Source: Corbicula japonica (taxonomy: Eukaryota > Mollusca > Bivalvia > Venerida > Cyrenidae). Taken from it: 64,000 nucleotides of DNA. The notes below the pieces were generated by a model. It saw only the letters and a program-made list of their open reading frames with translations, did no database searches and was not told the DNA's origin. The stretch is taken from contig JAZAYU010000005.1 of assembly GCA_038501625.1 (NCBI GenBank), positions 13,355,484-13,419,483 of the forward strand, given 5' to 3'. Positions within the stretch are counted from its first letter, which is position 1. Every line of letters begins with the position of its first letter. Position numbers and translations under genes: made by a program. This document shows positions 3,201 to 45,545 of this stretch, in pieces.

Positions 3201-5260
3201 CATGTTCGAACAATTCAATAACGCCAACCCCTACAAAATGACTAGCCTCAAACAGTATTATCCATTTTAATTACAATAACATTTTTATTATTATAGAAGG
3301 TTGCGACAATGAAGCAGCTGGTCATTACGTAGATATGGACATCTGCGATATGCTAACACCTGAAGAATGCACTGATCCGCTCGTGGAGCAATTCTGTACC
3401 GCCAAGTGTAATAGATGTAGTAAGTAAATCTGATATATAGGGAGCGTCCATGAAAAGGTACCTTTGGAAAAAAAGGTGCAATATGCATATCAGGAATCGC
3501 CACATTCAGAAAAAAATAGCCTCCCCACACAGTCAAGAAGAGGAGAGAGGGAGAGAGCATGGTTAATAAAATGATCAGTTTCAAAAAAGACATCAATAAC
3601 AATAAACAAAAATGAGAACCCGAGGGGTTACCGCATTGGAACGGTCAGTGGCAAATCAAATTGCCGCTGGGGGTTTAAACCAGGTTCTAGGGTACACCAA
3701 CCTCACACTTGCCCCAACAGGTTCTCATATCACAAAACAAGTACAAGTTGTCTTAGTGAAAATACTCCAACCCACTTATCGGCTCAACAATGTTGCATGC
3801 AAAAGCACACAAACATATAAAACATAAAAAGCTAAGAGCATTGCAAAGCCGAAGGGGCGGGTACTCAATGATCTTACCGAGACCAGAGCTCCTGGAGTAA
3901 AATCAGCAAGAACACGACGGGGATAAAAGAAACAAATCGAGCTTGTAGGTTCTTTTAAGAAAAGATTTCCCCATAAACCTTCATAAACTCTTAAACCCCT
4001 GCCACCTTCGTGCAACCAAAAAGGTAAGCATAATGATCAACTGTAGAAGGGTTAATCACCAGGCCTGCAGAGCGCTGTAAAATATCATGTTGGTAACTGA
4101 CGTCATAACGTTGAGCAGACGAGATTACTGGTTATGCCTTTCGTGGTAAAATATTATTCTGGTGTCGAAATGTGTAACAAAATACCCAATAAGTTATGAG
4201 AAAGCGATGTCAAACAATTTGACCAAATATACCTTTTTCCCTGGCGTGCCCCATATATAACAGTATTATTATCTTGTTTTATGCTCTAGATATGTGATTA
4301 AATAGTTTGTTCCTTGACGTTTGATTTATGCATTGAATGCACAAGGCATATCTAAAATGTTGCATGTCAGAGTTTGTCTCAAAATAACCATAAGTTTGTC
4401 TTTAAATTATTTCTTTTGACCACGTAAGCAAAGCACTTTTAGCATGGCAGTCATGCAGACATAAACTGCGACTTGAATATTTAAACATCTTGAATGGCCA
4501 TGTTTCTTGTCCTAATCAGTCGAGAAACCATAGCATTTGTATCATTAATAAACATAAGGTTTAATCAATCTTTTTTGTTCTGTTTTTCAGGACGTTTTCC
4601 GGAAATTCTAAACATAGGTAACTAAAATCGGAAACCATTGAAAGAGGTGTGGATATATCTTCAGGATTGCCTTTAAAATATATAAAAATGGTCACAACAA
4701 CTTCAATTGAATGTTCATATCATGAGTATGTACCTCATAGAAAAAATAATTGAGAATTTTGAACATTGGTTATTAAAAGAAAACATCCAAAGAGGTGTGA
4801 GTATGTCTACAAAATAGCCTTTAAAATCTATGAAAAATGTCAAAACAATGTTGATTTGAATGTTCACATCATATAAAAATACCTCATTGTGAAAATAATT
4901 TGAGAACTTTAAAATTTGGTAATTAAAACGGAAGCCAATTACTGACAATTAATATACCACATAGTAAAAAAATTGTGAATTTTGAACATTTGGTAAAAAC
5001 GGAAGCAAACCAAAGAGGAGTGAGTATATCTACAGCATTGCCTTTAAAATCAATGAAAGATTGTCACAACAATGTTGAATTGAATGTAAACATCATGAGT
5101 TTATACTTCATAGTGGAAAATGGAGGCGGTCCATGAGACAATGTTTCTTCGGGAGGCTGGCATCGTTTATAGACGTGACATCATAAAGACGGAATTGATT
5201 ATTTAGCATATTACTGTAAAATTATAGACATAATTGTTTTTAGGAAAAATTACCAATTAA
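260..5260 (+). CDS. 3' end of a secreted cysteine-rich gene (EGF-like + ShKT; possible CAP/SCP protein tail), partial, multi-exon
   Basis: I read five exons: 260-289, 783-884, 3297-3419, 4591-4617 and 5244-5260 (stop TAA 5258-5260). Each has an AG before it, and the first four have a GT after. The first four all start and end in phase 1, so they join in frame and could be skipped or duplicated without a frameshift, which is typical of extracellular modules. The joined protein has a CxxxxxxxC piece, an EGF-like module with a CSCTC core, then a six-cysteine ShKT module ending CTAKCNRC. An EGF-like hinge followed by ShKT is the tail I know from secreted CAP/SCP proteins of bivalves, so the CAP domain would lie left of base 1. 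The family is an inference. The modular exons are what the sequence shows. No signal peptide is expected in this C-terminal part. The two last small exons are the least certain. Confidence 0.5.
520..715 (+). repeat. Family B SINE, tail segment
   Basis: It carries the family B tail: a gtaaatattga block, a GTGGGTAGTAAT / ATTACTG arm pair, the GGCTCAATCAAACCAAGCC stem and the final TTGAAAGTTCCATTTTCATC. The same series recurs at 6595, 11873, 19470, 42145 and 62315. It lies in the intron between exons 260-289 and 783-884. Confidence 0.7.
783..884 (+). CDS. EGF-like module exon (phase 1-1, 102 nt)
   Basis: The acceptor is tgtttactttcag and the donor is GTACGT at 885. The 34 codons read CRKTC, then a Gly-rich loop, then TCSCTCQYGRGLNC. 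This is a C-x3-C ... C-x-C-x-C-x8-C pattern typical of EGF-like hinges. Length is an exact multiple of three and no stop occurs in frame. It is GC-richer than the flanking intron. Confidence 0.6.
1105..1165 (+). repeat. Family B SINE, 3'-end fragment
   Basis: Only the terminal block is present (GTGTTCGATGGCTTTCAAAG followed by ttccattttcttttatttat). It is in the large intron before the ShKT exon. Confidence 0.5.
1166..2775. other. Intron sequence without recognised elements
   Basis: AT-rich, with short open frames on both strands that show no splice context, codon bias or family resemblance. I see nothing further in it. Confidence 0.4.
2776..2852. mobile_element. Half copy of palindromic MITE family 1
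   Basis: It matches one arm of the family (TCTCAAATCTCAAGCATCTG, then ATTGGATGAAAT) and then stops. The mirror arm is missing, so it is a deletion derivative. Confidence 0.55.
3297..3419 (+). CDS. ShKT-type six-cysteine module exon (phase 1-1, 123 nt)
   Basis: The acceptor is ttattattatag and the donor is GTAAGT at 3420. Cysteine spacing is C-x13-C-x7-C-x8-C-x3-C-x2-C, ending CTAKCNRC; the last three spacings are characteristic of ShKT modules. Acidic residues follow the first cysteine (CDNEA). ShKT modules are common structural add-ons of secreted animal enzymes and CAP proteins, and nothing here says it is a toxin. If the donor is not used, the frame stops soon after, at 3425-3427. Confidence 0.65.
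3468..3790 (-). mobile_element. Family A interspersed repeat, near full-length
   Basis: On the - strand it begins TTGTTGAGCCGATAAGTGGG and ends with the family's tail (GACTGTGTGGGGAGGCTATT ... GATATGCATATTGCACC). Over more than 300 bases it aligns almost without gaps to the copy at 26818-27132. Because the two copies are so alike, both are probably young. It starts about 50 bases after the ShKT exon donor. Confidence 0.75.
3838..4020 (-). repeat. Repeat related to the 26700 and 45262 'TTCCTGCAATCGTG' family
   Basis: In reverse orientation it resembles 26700-26800 (GTACCTACCC... and AACTCAAGAAGCTCTGGTCT). It appears to be a third dispersed family of modest length, with degraded ends. Confidence 0.35.
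4085..4262 (+). repeat. Dispersed repeat ending in CCTTTTTCCCTGGCGTGCCCCAT
   Basis: It shares ACTGACGTCATAACGTTGAG plus a later block reading accttttTCC.TGGCGTGC.CCAT with 54955-55240. The end block also occurs alone at 38285-38345 and in degraded form at 61375. Not assigned to a known class. Confidence 0.4.
4591..4617 (+). CDS. Possible 27-nt microexon
   Basis: A strong acceptor (ttttttgttctgtttttcag) precedes 4591 and GTAACT follows 4617. In phase 1 it encodes RFPEILNI and is phase-neutral (27 nt). Its 3' half and its donor match the first unit of the tandem array at 4600-5120, so the donor is itself repeat sequence. Skipping it would leave the reading frame unchanged. Confidence 0.35.
4600..5120 (+). 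repeat. Degenerate tandem array, about 147-bp unit, 3-4 copies
   Basis: Landmarks GAGGTGTGGATATATC (4645), GAGGTGTGAGTATGTC (4792) and GAGGAGTGAGTATATC (5015) recur, together with GCCTTTAAAAT and AACAATGTTGAATTGAATGT. One unit near 4920-5000 is internally deleted. The first unit contains the splice donor of the possible microexon. Confidence 0.7.
5244..5260 (+). CDS. Possible terminal coding exon with stop
   Basis: The acceptor is acataattgtttttag. Read in phase 1 it gives Gly/Arg-KITN followed by TAA at 5258-5260. A GTAAGT also occurs at 5278, so the exon could instead be internal in another phase. Candidate poly(A) signals AATAAA lie at 5938-5943 and 6240-6245. Confidence 0.3.
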
Positions 5261-25955: not shown

Positions 25956-26699
25956 AATATTCCTTCATCAGTTAAAAAAGAAACATATCCATACCCTCTT
26001 TCTTGAAGAAGGTAAATATGTTTTCCCAGTATCGATAATTGTTACATATTTATCTGGCAATATGTAATAGCATACTTCTTTTCATTTGCCTGTGTTGAAA
26101 AGTTGATACGTTACACTCCACTTAATGGCATGTTTCGGGAAATTTTTATCTCGTCATTCGAAGCTAACGTCCTGGATAAATTGTGTTTCCTGCCCAGATT
26201 AAGTACACTTTTCACATCTGGAAATGCGTCATATATGAATTATTTATAATCACTCTTTAGTAACAAACTAAGAAAAAGAACAAAGTGTGTATAATGAGAC
26301 ATTGCACTGTTATTTGTAGATATTATTTGTCTTATATAACACAATCATCAAATAGCAATAATCACAAAATTAGAAAAAAGTTATGAATTTTTGTCGATAG
26401 CCAGATTTAATTCAATAATCTCAGTTCAGTTTAAAATTATGGTAGAAACTGCAACGGGGAGTTCCTTGGCAATTGTTCATAGAGTTTTATAAATTTAAAA
26501 GCCTTAAATCAATTTATCAACCTTTTTGTAAAAAACGTTAACTTTGTAAATTGAAAATAAAAGGCTACTAGCATAATTTTCTGCAGCGCTTTGCTAGGTG
26601 ATTAACAATCTACATTCGCTTTGTTTACCTCTTTGCACGGAAGTGGCAGGGGTTAAAAAGTGTTAGTTTGTAGGAAAATCTTGAGAATGGAAGTAGAAT

Positions 26700-26805
26700 C
26701 TCGATCAGTGTCTTTTATAGCTTTATTACTGTCATCCGCGCTCTTGCTGAATTAACTCAAGAAGCTCTGGTCTAAGTTATGTCATTGAGTACCTACCCAT
26801 TTTGC
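26700..26805 (+). repeat. Dispersed repeat related to the 45262 array
   Basis: TCGATCAGTGTCTTTTATAG, then AACTCAAGAAGCTC and GAGTACCTACCCA, parallel the 45262 unit and the reversed copy at 3838. Confidence 0.35.
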
Positions 26806-26817
26806 TTGAAAATACTA

Positions 26818-27132
26818 TAAAAAGGTGAAATATGCATATCAGGAATCGCCACATTCAGAAAAAACAACCTCCCCACACAGTCAAGAAGAAGAGAGGGAGA
26901 GAGCATGGTTAATAAAATGATCAGTTTCAAAAGAGACACCACTAACAATTAACAAAAATGAGAACCTGAGGGGTTACCGCCTTGGAACGGTCAGTGGCAA
27001 ATCAAATTGCCACTGGGGGTTTAAACCAGGTTCTAGGGTGCACCAACCTCACACTTGCCCAACAGGTTCTCATATCACAAAACAAATACAAGTTGTCTTG
27101 GTGAAACAACAACCCACTTATTGGCTCAACAA
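26818..27132 (-). mobile_element. Family A interspersed repeat, near full-length
   Basis: It aligns along its whole length with 3468-3790. It begins (- strand) at TTGTTGAGCCAATAAGTGGG, exactly where reverse-transcriptase homology of the neighbouring retroelement ends (…GCACCCC), so this insertion or a recombination at its end truncated the RT. Confidence 0.8.
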
Positions 27133-27987
27133 GGGGTGCACAATTAGTACCAATTGGGATGCCTATTACTTGTTTATAAATAGAGGTACCGAATCTAACA
27201 TAAATATTATCCAGTAAGAAAGCTAGCGACTCTATTAGGTCTTGACATGTCCATAAAGTATAATTATCATAAGAACCATCTGTATAAAATGCCCTATGTT
27301 CATTACAAGCGATGAACGTTTTATATTCTCTAGCAAACGTTTTTCCAATGAGACTGGTTAGTTTGTCTCTTATTAAATTATGGGGGAGCGAGGTATATAA
27401 AGTTGAGAAATCATAAGTAGACAAACAGAACGCCTGAAAATTATTTGATTTAAGCTTTTTTTAAACGTCATTTGAATTTTAAATCGACCAAAATAAATTT
27501 TTGCCAGAAGTTTCAAAAACCTTATCGCAATACCTAATTACATGTTCTTTAATAGCTGTAAGACAAGAAGTTAAGAGCACGGATAATTTAGTAGTAGTGC
27601 AAGAACTAGAGTTAGCAATAAATCTTGCTTTGTACGGTGTTTTATGCATTTTAGGCAACCAATACATAATAGGTACTTTGTCTTGTTTCGGCTCAATACT
27701 GATTCTAAATTTTGTAATTTGTAGAGTGTGTGCAGTAACAATATCACTCTCAGATGAAGAAGTCAGTACATAAGCATAAGCATTAGTGCTGTTCAGTTCT
27801 TCAGTTTGAATATTAATATAGTGTACCCGTCACACTATAATTACATTATTAGAAGCCTTATCAGCAGGTGTTAAAACAAATTTGTTATGAAAGTCTTGAA
27901 TTCCTTTTTTCAAATTACGAAAGTTAAAACGAGGTCGAGATGGTAATAAAGCAATGTTTCTTTCATAAAATGATATACGAGTGTCTA
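27133..27987 (-). pseudogene. Reverse transcriptase domain, truncated, of the Naiad-like element
   Basis: The frame reads FVLTPADKASNNVIIV, UGA (27832-27830), RVHYINIQTEELNSTNAY, then YWLPKMHKTPYKARFIANSS. After TAA at 27481-27479 and another near 27460, the same frame resumes with STYDFSTLYTSLPHN (motif A, catalytic Asp) and KQVIGIPIGTNCAPL (motif B). PADKA, PKMHK.P and the DFSTLYT/GIPIGTNCAP pair are Penelope-like RT hallmarks. Motif C (YxDD) and the thumb are missing because family A sequence starts at 27132. Confidence 0.8.
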
Positions 27988-28691
27988 TTATTTTGAATAT
28001 GTGTTTTTTCCAGGCTCAGCATGTTCTCTTTTGCACCATTTATTGCAAAATAGGTTTAAAGACTCAGCAATTTCTCCACGACATGCATTAAAATCAATTT
28101 TGGATGGAATTCTATATTTGGGACCTTTAGAAATTAAATTACGAATTCTAGAGTCTTTGATTACATTAAGATCACCGGTAACAATATGACCGACAGGCAT
28201 ATAGCAATATTTAGAAGTTAAACACTCTCCAGATTTTGGTGTATTATCAATGATCTGTAAATCAGAGGTAATTTTATTGTAACTAAAAATTGTATTTCTA
28301 GTTGGTTTGTTGTATTTATAACGAACCATAGGCGATTCAGTATTCTTAAAATAATTAGGAACAGTCAATTGAACTGTTTTATCTTTAAATATACTAGGAA
28401 GGTCAATAAAATCTATTCCTTTATTTATAAAAGAAATTTTGAGGAAATGTCTTTTATGGTCAGATTCCAAGTCAATGTGTGGCCTGAGAACATGCCGAGT
28501 ATAACACTGAATCAGACTAGCAACCTCGTAAAATGGATGGGTTCTTATGACGATGTCGTCTGCTTCCTCATCCAGTTTCTGCAGACTTGATATAGAAAGA
28601 GAAGCCAACCTAGATAGCATAGCGTGTCTGCCTGATTGTTTTAAAATAATATGTAGGTCATTAATAGAACAACGAATATGTGATTTTCTTT
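27988..28691 (-). pseudogene. Naiad linker / pre-RT region
   Basis: The open part begins before the Met at 28620: GNIKRKSHIRCSINDLHIIL precedes MLSRLASLSI. It contains CLTSKYCYMPVGHIVTGDLN and NLISKGPKYRIPSKI, then a W-C-K-R-E end. This block sits between endonuclease and RT, where the clade's CxC-containing linker is expected. Here the CxC position reads Gly-Glu-Cys (GGA at 28230-28228, TGT at 28224-28222), one substitution from UGA or TGT. The frame ends with TAA after a run of six A, where one missing base would restore continuity. Confidence 0.65.
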
Positions 28692-29180
28692 TTATGTTTC
28701 CATTAGTTCTGCTTCCGTGCGACCTCGATTTTCGTATTTTCGTTTGCGTAATTCAAGCAATTCAAAGACGTCATAATCAGGATTTTTAGAAATGTTGCCT
28801 TCCTGATAAATATTATCATTTAAACCAAGTGGGTATGGACATTGTAATTTTTTAATCCATTTTTGTTCCGAAATGAGTCTGGCCCTAATTTTAAATGCTC
28901 TTGATGCAGCGCTGTCAAATGTAAGTTTTTCTACTGGTTGAACGGAAATATTTTGTAAACGGTGTCCTGAATGTTTAAAATGCTGGTATAAAAATGTTTT
29001 AAATTTGCCGTTGTTTCGAATTTTAGAACAATGTTGTTTAAAACGTGTTTTTAAGGGGCGACCTGTTTGACCTACATATTGAATTCCACAGTTATTAGAA
29101 TTTCAAGTTAAAACGTAAACAACATTATCAGTTTGTCAGTCTATATCATTATTAGTTTCATATGTTTCTTTGTTTGTGTC
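28692..29180 (-). pseudogene. GIY-YIG endonuclease domain of the Naiad-like element
   Basis: The - strand frame reads ...NNDID(UGA)QTDNVVYVLT, then UGA, then NSNNCGIQYVGQTGRPLKTR and an H-x(n)-H segment (FKQHCSK ... YQHFKHSGHR). CGIQYVGQT with a downstream Arg and His is the GIY-YIG core as found in Penelope-like elements, whose endonucleases carry a CCHH metal-type signature. Both UGAs occupy the expected Cys spots just before GIQYVG. The frame continues through FDSAASRAFKIRARLISEQK and KRKYENRGR to TAA at 28694-28692. The next domain is in another frame, so an indel has occurred near 28700. Confidence 0.75.
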
Positions 29181-29215: not shown

Positions 29216-29425
29216 TTGTGGTTTTTCACCAAGACAACTTATACTTGTTTTTTCATATGCGACCCTCTAGAGGCAAGTGTGATGTTGGTGCAACATGGAG
29301 AACCTTAAAACGCAGTGGCTAAATGTTTTGCTACTGTCCGTCCCATGGCAGTAAACCCCCATGTTCTTAATTTCATTAATTACTTACTGTGTTTTTTTTT
29401 TGGTAATTTAAAGAATTCGTGTTCT
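29216..29425 (+). mobile_element. Family A interspersed repeat, diverged
   Basis: TTTCACCAAGACAACTTATA, GAGGCAAGTGTGATGTTGGT, CTACTGTCCGTCCCATGGCA and CCATGTTCTTAATTTCATTA follow the family order. It is oriented opposite to the copy at 26818-27132. It may extend to about 29480 in worn form. Confidence 0.6.
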
Positions 29426-31965: not shown

Positions 31966-32272
31966 ATCATTCATGTATTTGTATATTTGTAATAAAAATC
32001 TGTTCAATTTCTTTTTGATTAACGCCACAAAAGTTGATTGATGTGCTTAAATCTTAGAATGCTCGGTACTGGTGGGGGCTTGAGTGTTAACGAAAGTTTC
32101 GAGAGAGGTCTTGAAGAAATAACTTGAGGGGTTAGATAAGATATTTATGCCTGCCACGATGATCTTGCTGATATACCTTAATGTGCTTTGGTATCAGAAC
32201 GATCATCGAATGCTTTCCCGTTTTCACTGACAATGTTTTTGTGATTTAAAAATTTGTTATCTTATAAACGTA

Positions 32273-34676: not shown

Positions 34677-35904
34677 TGAACAAAATTTAAAAGTAGTCAT
34701 ATAACATTATTAGCTGCCCACAGTTCGCTTCTTCAAATGGATCATAAATCGTGACATGGCGAAACAATCAAAGTCAACTAAAACAGAATAAAAAAAACCC
34801 AATTAATATCAGATAACATCATTGAACATTACAACAGTGATGTTTTCTTTTATATGACCTTACAATTGATATTTGCCAGGCAATTATAGCCTCATCCTTA
34901 CTAATGTCTGGTATTCGTAAACGTTTGTGTTGATTAATTTTCAATATTTTACAGCACAGGTTTAACGGTGTTATTGTTTACTTGAATTGGCGTAAACAAT
35001 TACAAGAAAGAAAATAGGTGATATTGTGTGATTTGATTTGGCGTAAACAATTATGTAAAAGACAGTGCATGTATACTGCATATCATTTAGATTTTAAGTT
35101 TATCTGAACTATGCCTACTGTAAATAGATACACGTTCTATAGAAAGCTTAAATGAACAAGTTCAGGTTCCTGATTAAACTTGTCCATTTCCACGATAAAT
35201 AAATAAGAGTTGCACCCAAAAAAATCCAGTCTTTCAGAAAACACCTAGTACACCTTCACTTTAATATATCTGACTTGTAGTAACTTTAAATATGACCTTT
35301 TTGTAATAGCATAAAATTAATTACTATAAATTTGATTAATTAATTTGATTGATTGATATAATTAATTAACATAACAGTATTGAAGCAAAAGCCCGACTAA
35401 TACGTTTCCATCCTCCTTTTAACACTGCGGTGACATTTGGGGTTTCAACGAAAACGGTTCTTTCACAATTACGACGTACAACCGGCACGCAGATTTACGT
35501 TTTTTACCGATTTTATATAGTTTAAAATGGTTTCGGTCGCGAAAATGATATCAATTCTAACATTTACTCCTTTGTTTAAAGATGCTCTAAATGTCGGTAT
35601 TCCGTTTTGCTGACATATACCTTTTTATGCGTTTTTTGTTTCCAGTTTTACAGTGACTGGCATATAACTTCATAAAGATTTCTATGAAAGTCTTGAATAA
35701 AGAAAGTAGAAGCTCAATCAGTTTCTTTTTTTCGTGCCATTTTGTTATTGGTTATTGAACTCATGTATCATGTCTCAAGTGCTCATGTCTCAGTAAGGTT
35801 ATTGGATACATTCATTTTGTTTCCCAATGTCATTACATGTTCAATATTTTGTATGTTTTTATGCTTTGACATGAAATATAGTCTAGTTGATTGGTTAGTT
35901 GAAG

Positions 35905-40400: not shown

Positions 40401-40439
40401 TCAAACTGCTATCAAACTATATTATGTCTGATTTTTTAA

Positions 40440-42105
40440 AACACAAATGTTCTTCTCTTTATTTAAATCACAAATGTTCTTTTCTTTACTTAAATCACAA
40501 ATGTTCTTCTCTTTATTTAAAACACAGATGTTCTTCTCTTTATTTAAATCACAAATGTTCTTCTCTTTATTTAAATCACAAATGGTTTTCTCTTTATTTA
40601 AAACACAAATGTTCTTCTCTTTATTAAAATCACAAATGTTCTTCTCTTTATTTAAATCACAAATGTTCTTCTCTTTATTTAAAACACAAATGTTCTTCTC
40701 TCTATTTAAAACACACATGTTCTTCTCTTTATTTAAATCACAAATGTTCTTCTCTTTATTTAAAACACACATGTTCTTCTCTTTATTTAAATCACAAATG
40801 TTCTTCTCTTTATTTCAATCACAAATGTTCTTCTCTTTATTTCAATCACAAATGTTCTTCTCTTTATTTCAATCACAAATGTTCTTCTCTTTATTTAAAT
40901 CACAGATGTTCTTCTCTTTATTTAAAACACAAATGTTCTTCTCTTTATTTAAATCACAAATGTTCTTCTCTTTATTTAAATCACAAATGCTCTTCTCTTT
41001 ATTTAAATCACAAATGTTCTTCTCTTTATTTATATCACAAATGTTCTTCTCTTTATTTAAATCACAGATGTTCTTCTCTTTATTTCAATCACAAATGTTC
41101 TTCTCTTTATTTCAATCACAAATGTTCTTCTCTTTATTTAAATCACAGATGTTCTTCTCTTTATTTCAATCACAAATGTTCTTCTCTTTATTTCAATCAC
41201 AAATGTTCTTCTCTTTATTTAAATCACAAATGTTCTTCTCTTTATTTAAATCACAAATGTTCTTCTCTTTATTTAAATCACAAATGTTCTTCTCTTTATT
41301 TCAATCACAAATGTTCTTCTCTTTATTTAAATCACAAATGTTCTTCTCTTTATTTAAATCACAAATGTTCTTCTCTTTATTTAAATCACAAATGTTCTTC
41401 TCTCCATCTAAATCACAAATGTTCTTCTCTTTATTTATATCACAAATGTTCTTCTCTTTATTTAAATCACAGATGTTCTTCTCTTTATTTCAATCACAAA
41501 TGTTCTTCTCTTTATTTAAATCACAAATGTTCTTCTCTTTATTTCAATCACAGATGTTCTTCTCTTTATTTAAATCACAAATGTTCTTCTCTTTATTTCA
41601 ATCACAAATGATCTTCTCTTCATTTAAATCACAAATGTTCTTCTCTTTATTTAAATCACAAATGTTCTTCTCTTTATTTAAATCACAAATGTTCTTCTCT
41701 TTATTTAAATCACAAATGTTCTTCTCTTTATTTAAATCACAAATGTTCTTCTCTTTATTTCAATCACAGATGTTCTTCTCTTTATTTAAATCACAAATGT
41801 TCTTCTCTTTATTTAAATCACAAATGATCTTCTCTTCATTTAAATCACAAATGTTCTTCTCTTCATTTAAATCACAAATGTTCTTCTCTTCTTTTAAATC
41901 ACAAATGTTCTTCTCTTTATTTAAATCACAAATGTTCTTCTCTTTATTTAAATCACAAATGTTCTTCTCTTTATTTAAATCACAAATGTTCTTCTCTTTA
42001 TTTAAATCACAAATGTTCTTCTCTTTATTTAAATCACAAATGTTCTTCTCTTCATTTAAATCACAAATGTTCTTCTCTTTATTTAAATCACAAATGTTCT
42101 TCTCT
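40440..42105 (+). repeat. Minisatellite, 27-bp unit, about 61 copies
   Basis: The unit is ATGTTCTTCTCTTTATTTAA plus ATCACAA. Since 27 is a multiple of three, frames stay open on both strands (553 codons on +, MFFSLFKSQ repeated; KEKNICDLN on -). Variants are not random: AAAACACA forms lie in the first third, and the TATATCACAA variant recurs 15 units apart (about 41030 and 41435). No splice context, start context or signal suggests a protein. Confidence 0.95.
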
Positions 42106-42144
42106 TAGTTTCTTGTTTGTGGCTTTGATCATTCTAAGTTCCTC

Positions 42145-44467: not shown

Positions 44468-44612
44468 GGGCTGAAGGTTATAAAACTGAGTTTGGAAACC
44501 AGTCTCAAATCTCAAGCATCTGATTGGCTGAAATGGCGACTGGTCGGCATTTCAGCCAATCAGATGCTTGAGATTTGAGACTGGTTTCCATGCTCAGTTT
44601 TATAACCTTGGG
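44468..44612. mobile_element. Palindromic MITE family 1, full copy (opposite orientation)
   Basis: The ends are GGGCTGAAGGTTATAAAACT and CAGTTTTATAACCTTGGG. The centre is GGCGACTGGTCGGC. The arms pair almost base for base over about 65 positions. Confidence 0.9.
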
Positions 44613-45261
44613 TACTGGGCAGGAATCTTTGTAAACATGCTGGTTGGTTGGAAGTCTGGATTTTGTTACTTAGCTCTTAAGTTTTTAAAGTTTTAACTAC
44701 AGTTCAAATGATCATTTAAAAGTTTGTCGAACGCGATATTTACGATAAGACAGGTTAATATCCAGAGACCGATATTTACCAAAATCGCATATTAACAAAG
44801 TAAACACGAAGGGCGATCGTGTGTATGATCAAAGAGGACAAATAAATTGAGTATATTTCGTAGAGTTAGAGCGAGAAAGGTTTCAACTGTTCTTTTATTT
44901 TATATCACCAGGAATATGTTCGCTTTCACCACACGATTTATGTATGATCAAAGATACAAGAAACAAGGGGAAAATTACTTGTGATCAAAGAGGCAGGGAA
45001 AACTTTTGACAACTTATTGTATTGTAAAGAATATCATGTAAAGGGAGTGCATGTGAATAATTAGTAAGGCGATATACGTTTGTCGACTATATCCGTAAAA
45101 GGTTTTCCAGAAATATTATACGCTCTGCGTTCTCTTTAGTTAATTAACTATAAACGACTGCTTTCCTTACCTCTTGGTTTGCACGACGTTCGCAGGAGTT
45201 TAATAGTTTGTGAAGTTTTATAGGAAAATCTTGAAAAAAAACAACAACATAGAAACTCGAC

Positions 45262-45515
45262 CAGTTTCTTTATTCCTGCAATCGTGTTATTGTTCACTTA
45301 ACTCCAGGTAAGTTGTGACAGTAATGTCGGTGAATACCTACCTACCTTTTTCTTTTATTCCTGCAATCGTGTTTTTGTTGACTTAACTCCAGGTGCGTTG
45401 TGACAGTAATGCCGGTGAATACCTGTACCTTTTTCTTTTATTCCTGCAATCGTGTTATTTCTGACTTAACTTTAAGGTGTTGTTGCGACAGTAATGTCGG
45501 TGAATACCTATCTTT
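45262..45515 (+). repeat. Tandem array, about 85-bp unit, 3 copies
   Basis: TTTATTCCTGCAATCGTGTT, GACTTAACTCCAGG and TGACAGTAATGTCGGTGAAT recur three times, with CCTACCT spacers between. Confidence 0.85.
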
Positions 45516-45545
45516 TTCGCATCACAATGCCATTAGCTTCTAACG

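Follow-up and report, generated by a model that had tools for sequence, protein, structure and literature searches.

The 64-kb stretch of Corbicula japonica DNA analysed here (the window) carries the truncated, dead remains of a Naiad-like Penelope retroelement. The active ancestors of this copy very probably encoded a selenoprotein. As many as four of their Cys positions would have been occupied by UGA, namely two in the Cys cluster of the GIY-YIG endonuclease (EN), the first Cys of a CxC motif and one in the RT. These sites have putative roles, for example in binding metal or sensing redox state, and selenocysteine (Sec) may have had enzymatic value. Beginning the 3′ UTR, a SECIS hairpin would have made the host's selenocysteine machinery decode the UGAs as Sec, and Sec insertion would then have given a full-length EN–RT protein.

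The element and its in-frame stop codons

The broken Penelope-like element lies on the minus strand (29177–26819) with the domain order EN, CxC linker and RT (Table 1). Homology to relatives is detectable from 29177 onward, and relatives align over the entire EN part (232 proteins matched, the best 120 of them listed), while the Pfam GIY-YIG match to this part falls below the cut-off (E = 7.2e-4; 20.2 bits, cut-off 22.6). The element is termed Naiad-like for its domain order and CxC motif: the weak Pfam match places the GIY-YIG EN N-terminal to the RT, the same order is found in the related locus L001, and the linker motif is mostly CxC in relatives and GxC in the window itself. The copy is clearly dead, with two frameshifts (the first at about 28690–28750, the second at about 28015), two TAAs and a deletion of the RT C-terminus; it is inert and unable to make the EN–RT protein. 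The sequence that follows the RT runs to 26819; 26819–27132 is 93% identical to 3470–3790, and because the same tail follows the end of a sister copy's ORF it is taken as the element's own 3′ tail; its interpretation as an unrelated dispersed repeat was rejected on the same ground. Several 5′-truncated Naiad copies and tails occur in the window.

Other features of the window include a long tandem minisatellite at 40432–42108 (repeats such as FFSLFKSQM and NKEKNICDL), which is open in several frames on both strands and coincides with a strong GC skew, and a palindrome of about 130 bp, recognized by eye at 44480–44610, that is perhaps a foldback or MITE-type element. A tRNA search of the window found none, and Rfam at gathering thresholds gave no match in it.

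The first-pass annotation, made from the letters and a list of open reading frames, had placed three in-frame UGAs at expected Cys positions, the second of them directly before the NCGIQYVGQT core, and two TAAs at other kinds of position, and had favoured recoding over random decay. All three UGAs and the placement of the second are borne out by the codons read from the sequence, and the two EN-frame TGAs share one frame, 11 codons apart. The first TAA lies exactly where it had been reported, and the second, given as about 27460, is refined to 27463–27461. An extra in-frame TAA (29186–29184) lies upstream of detectable homology. Taken from the window only, p is about 0.007–0.013 for three random UGAs all falling on Cys codons under a single-step mutation model, a modest excess over chance that is suggestive and no more. 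This window-only chance of about 1% and the plainly dead state of the copy, with its frameshifts, TAAs and deletion, are what favours random decay, in which the three UGAs would be ordinary nonsense mutations like the two TAAs; the relatives provide the evidence against it.

Table 1. Features of the Naiad-like copies in the window (query, column of the window element; residue counts are those of relatives)
Feature	Position	Strand	Evidence
GIY-YIG endonuclease part (N-terminal), 5′ truncated, holds UGA 1 and UGA 2	28695–29177	-	Pfam GIY-YIG
UGA 1, Cys column, query 11	29136–29138	-	TGA codon; C15 W3 D1
UGA 2, Cys column, query 22, before NCGIQYVGQT	29103–29105	-	TGA codon; C18 W2 A1 G1
Linker/CxC region and RT start, frame differs from EN	28018–28689	-	ORFs, alignment to relatives
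GGA at first Cys of CxC motif, query 313	28228–28230	-	Stop or Trp in closest relatives
RT, second frame	27833–28012	-	ORFs, homology
UGA 3, RT Cys column, query 448	27830–27832	-	TGA codon; C58 W19 L3 F1 T1
RT beyond UGA 3	27482–27829	-	ORFs
TAA at Lys column, decay	27479–27481	-	K66 N5 Q1 G1 T1 D1
TAA at Leu column, decay	27461–27463	-	L70 I4 V2
RT up to GIPIGTNCAPL, remainder of RT absent	27128–27460	-	Sequence and homology
Naiad 3′ tail fused straight to RT through internal deletion	26819–27127	-	Tail comparison
Second tail copy, inverted, just 5′ of EN fragment	29219–29399	+	75% identity over 186 bp; inverted repeats I1, I2
C-terminal end of sister Naiad copy, terminator TAA 3993–3991	3991–4095	-	91% identical to P0097 residues 398–431, 34 residues
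SECIS-like hairpin: AUGA, AAA apical loop, CGAU	3925–3992	-	Rfam SECIS_1 19.3 bits, E 0.69
3′ tail of sister copy	3470–3790	-	Tail comparison
Further 3′ end with GUGA/AAAA/CGAC, 7/10 helix pairs	45166–45308	+	No Rfam match
More decayed Naiad 3′ ends	26633–26718, 32016–32222, 35669–35753 (+)		Tail/3′ end comparison

Cysteine, tryptophan and protein ends in the relatives

In an alignment of the best 120 of 232 protein relatives, the columns of UGA 1, 2 and 3 hold Cys in 15 of 19, 18 of 22 and 58 of 82 rows, Trp in 3, 2 and 19, and other residues in 1, 2 and 5, respectively (columns 11 and 22 were read from this alignment; a later re-alignment misplaced column 22). The two TAA columns are Lys (66/75) and Leu (70/76). 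An in-frame UGA aligned to Cys in homologues, one mark of a selenoprotein gene, is found here, and the case for UGA at Cys positions is strong because the relatives show Cys or Trp at these columns and Lys or Leu at the TAA columns. Of the columns filled in 15 rows or more, 25 have Cys as the majority residue. Repeated Trp (twice or more) is confined to four of these 25, namely the columns of the three UGAs and that of the first Cys in CxC; the remaining ones have at most one Trp each, and the strongly conserved Cys columns at query 27, 315 and 525, together with three upstream, have none. Trp also occurs at least twice at 14 columns in which Cys is not the majority residue; many of these are aromatic or hydrophobic, and Trp alone is therefore no marker; it is Trp at Cys columns that is taken to mark UGA sites.

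The positions at which relatives end carry a second signal. We pooled 235 relatives from three overlapping protein searches (best 120 of 232, 40 of 40 and best 120 of 265). Among the matches listed, 73 of the 235 end one residue before column 448, the UGA 3 column, and 20 end one residue before column 313, the first Cys of CxC, while every other end position was seen at most once; the local alignments of these listed proteins stop at 447 in 72, 446 in 1, 312 in 11 and 310 in 9. The best 120 of 232 on their own include 37 that end at 447. These shared ends, the recurrence of Trp at the same Cys columns and the Lys and Leu identity of the TAA columns argue against random decay, which we reject on the column residues and the relatives' end positions and regard as very improbable. 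The first-pass preference for recoding is supported by the same states: where the window has UGA, relatives have Cys or Trp or break off, and where it has TAA they have Lys or Leu.

Stop and Trp forms occur at the same columns in independent copies at the protein level, and their codons, read back from proteins and not from DNA, would be UGA. A stop in one copy opposite Trp in a near relative fits UGA, and Trp in protein models may come from some gene callers using UGA as Trp. For instance, P0135–P0137, gene models of Pinctada imbricata and the sole ones of seven listed Pinctada proteins with a match reaching column 448, stop exactly where their 85–91% identical relative P0071 has Trp. Among the matches listed, 7 of the 73 proteins with a stop at column 448 have a Trp partner at 75% identity or more (85–93% identical), as do 14 of the 20 at column 313 (76–93%, some over only 60–71 columns); for the other 66 and 6, UAA or UAG is formally possible. 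Since the Trp-type relatives are known here from proteins alone, their Trp might be truly encoded as TGG and the stop-type relatives might carry unrelated nonsense mutations, but stop and Trp alternate at both columns between copies as close as those just given, and other strongly conserved Cys columns lack Trp, which leaves this explanation hardly credible. A changed nuclear code was also rejected: the sister copy's terminator is TAA, and the Trp states would fit the gene-caller setting named above.

The first Cys of CxC is a fourth such column, overlooked by the first-pass annotation, at which the window has GGA. Its first position is C in 63, W in 14 and another residue in four of 81 rows, and its second position is C in 77 of 82. 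P0175 and P0177, the closest relatives, end in VENTPTS, one residue before this column, and P0204, which shares 93% identity with them across 60 columns, reads VENTPTS-W-DC. Because the two proteins end where P0204 has Trp, the subfamily to which the window copy belongs is likely to have a fourth UGA, of which the GGA of the window is probably a decayed remnant. An end at 312 is also seen in P0223, a protein named as belonging to a Lucinoma symbiont MAG. In a pairwise mapping, a residue other than C, W or an end stands at column 313 in 29 of the 172 proteins reaching it, probably by misalignment through a small gap there; at column 448, two of 170 proteins have L and one has F in this mapping.

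The history of these states was followed on a FastTree phylogeny of the 117 columns before column 448, with 142 rows that comprise the window and 141 of the 235 relatives (those that show C, W or an end at column 448 and fill at least 85 of the 117 columns). With stop and Trp pooled as UGA states against Cys, 4 changes are needed on the tree. The starred clade that includes the window holds 99 UGA rows and 17 Cys rows, and 13 of the latter form two blocks (5 and 8) inside a group of 27 whose other members are 12 Trp rows and 2 stop rows. The pattern would fit an old gain of UGA followed by a few reversions to Cys. It is only a lead, because 66 of the 137 inner branches are unresolved and some long branches come together, in a sample biased to UGA-type kin since the query itself is UGA-type. 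Tentatively, with a chance that we put somewhat below even, Sec at the RT position may have originated a single time, in the ancestor of a large clade of retroelements (some 115 of the 142 tree rows), and been kept through most of its diversification with a few reversions to Cys. If true, few selenoprotein families would be as numerous or as rich in Sec as these elements, and the family would reach pearl oysters (Pinctada) and, going by a symbiont-bin protein, lucinid clams (Lucinoma).

A SECIS-like element at the 3′ end of a sister copy

A scan for a SECIS, which the first-pass annotation had proposed for the 3′ UTR of full-length copies, gave a SECIS-like element, below threshold, in the 3′ end of the sister copy and none beside the UGA copy, where the corresponding region is lost. 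The sister copy is of the same family, P0097, to which its C-terminal end was matched, being 92% identical to the RT of the UGA copy. SECIS_1 was the best of 4227 Rfam families over 3300–4020, at 19.3 bits against a gathering score of 35 and with E 0.69 for all families. The hairpin has 9 of 10 helix pairs; its SECIS fold (−9.2 kcal/mol) differs from the minimum-energy fold (−14.4 kcal/mol), with z −1.16, and AUGA lies only 6 nt past the stop, so that helix I would overlap the stop. Two control stretches of 10 kb, searched with Rfam up to E 10, gave no SECIS_1; in these, 19.3 bits would correspond to a scaled E of about 9.6, barely inside the limit. A pattern scan of both strands of the 64 kb gave 5 candidates including the sister hairpin; it was designed after the Rfam match had been seen and is therefore not an independent test.

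Four other Naiad 3′ ends in the window have 7, 6, 6 and 8 of the 10 pairs, and among them only the one at 45166–45308 keeps RUGA, AA and NGA together; a relaxed Rfam search over three of the four (all but 35669–35753) gave no SECIS. By eye, about three tandem copies of an ~83-bp unit are seen at 45270–45520, inside the 3′ tail of another Naiad 3′ end. Beside the UGA copy, Rfam at 26500–27130 found no SECIS. This copy has lost the stretch between RT and tail that holds the SECIS-like element in the sister copy, and it would therefore be a fossil of recoding.

The hairpin also bears on regulated readthrough without selenocysteine, in which a leaky UGA, decoded as Trp, Cys or Arg, would set the ratio of EN-only to EN–RT protein. 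Among stop codons UGA is the leakiest, and some protein models do have Trp at these columns; however, up to four UGAs per ORF would make plain readthrough very inefficient, each of the four coincides with a column at which Cys-type relatives have Cys, and the sister copy's ORF is followed by a SECIS-like element. We consider such readthrough improbable and favour Sec insertion in the active ancestors.

Significance and comparison with known elements

A mobile element dependent on the host selenium machinery is unusual. Gene callers cut such proteins at UGA, and we suggest that the points at which proteins in public sets break off mark Sec codons, so that Sec-type retroelements could be mapped cheaply; here the relatives point to a Sec site in the CxC motif that is no longer visible in the decayed window copy. 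A limited literature collection yielded nothing relevant on Naiad or Penelope with selenoprotein or selenocysteine, which has no bearing on the wider literature. Scans of viral contigs confirmed no relative, and a PDB sequence search with P0048 gave no match up to E 0.01. A search of genome contigs gave four loci, taken for animal DNA in bacterial bins, of which only L001 covers the Sec columns, with Cys; its record is titled as a Flavobacteriales MAG, and this full-length relative, with one open frame of 1013 aa, has the domain order of the window element. Two others, L002 and L003, in records named for Bathymodiolus symbionts, are Naiad-like fragments and probably mussel DNA in bacterial bins.

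Cys-type Naiad-like elements, such as L001 and P0048, share the domain order and have Cys, and nowhere UGA, at all four columns, but they are 30–35% identical to the window copy. An RT is also combined with a GIY-YIG domain in the canonical EN+ PLEs (Penelope/Poseidon, Neptune). For one Penelope/Poseidon element this combination is stated in a passage of a published article (PMC11167929). The EN is C-terminal in these canonical elements, whereas it is N-terminal in the window element.

The closest likeness is to the Naiads of spiders and clams, which, as Craig et al. are said to have described in 2021, independently evolved selenoproteins with several selenocysteines. These reportedly have an N-terminal GIY-YIG EN, a CxC linker, an RT and several UGAs at Cys positions, as does the window element, whose few named relatives come from bivalves or from bins of bivalve symbionts. 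The likeness is one of description, and unlike those elements the window copy is truncated and dead. Selenoprotein Naiads have thus reportedly been known since 2021, and the window copy would add another such element.
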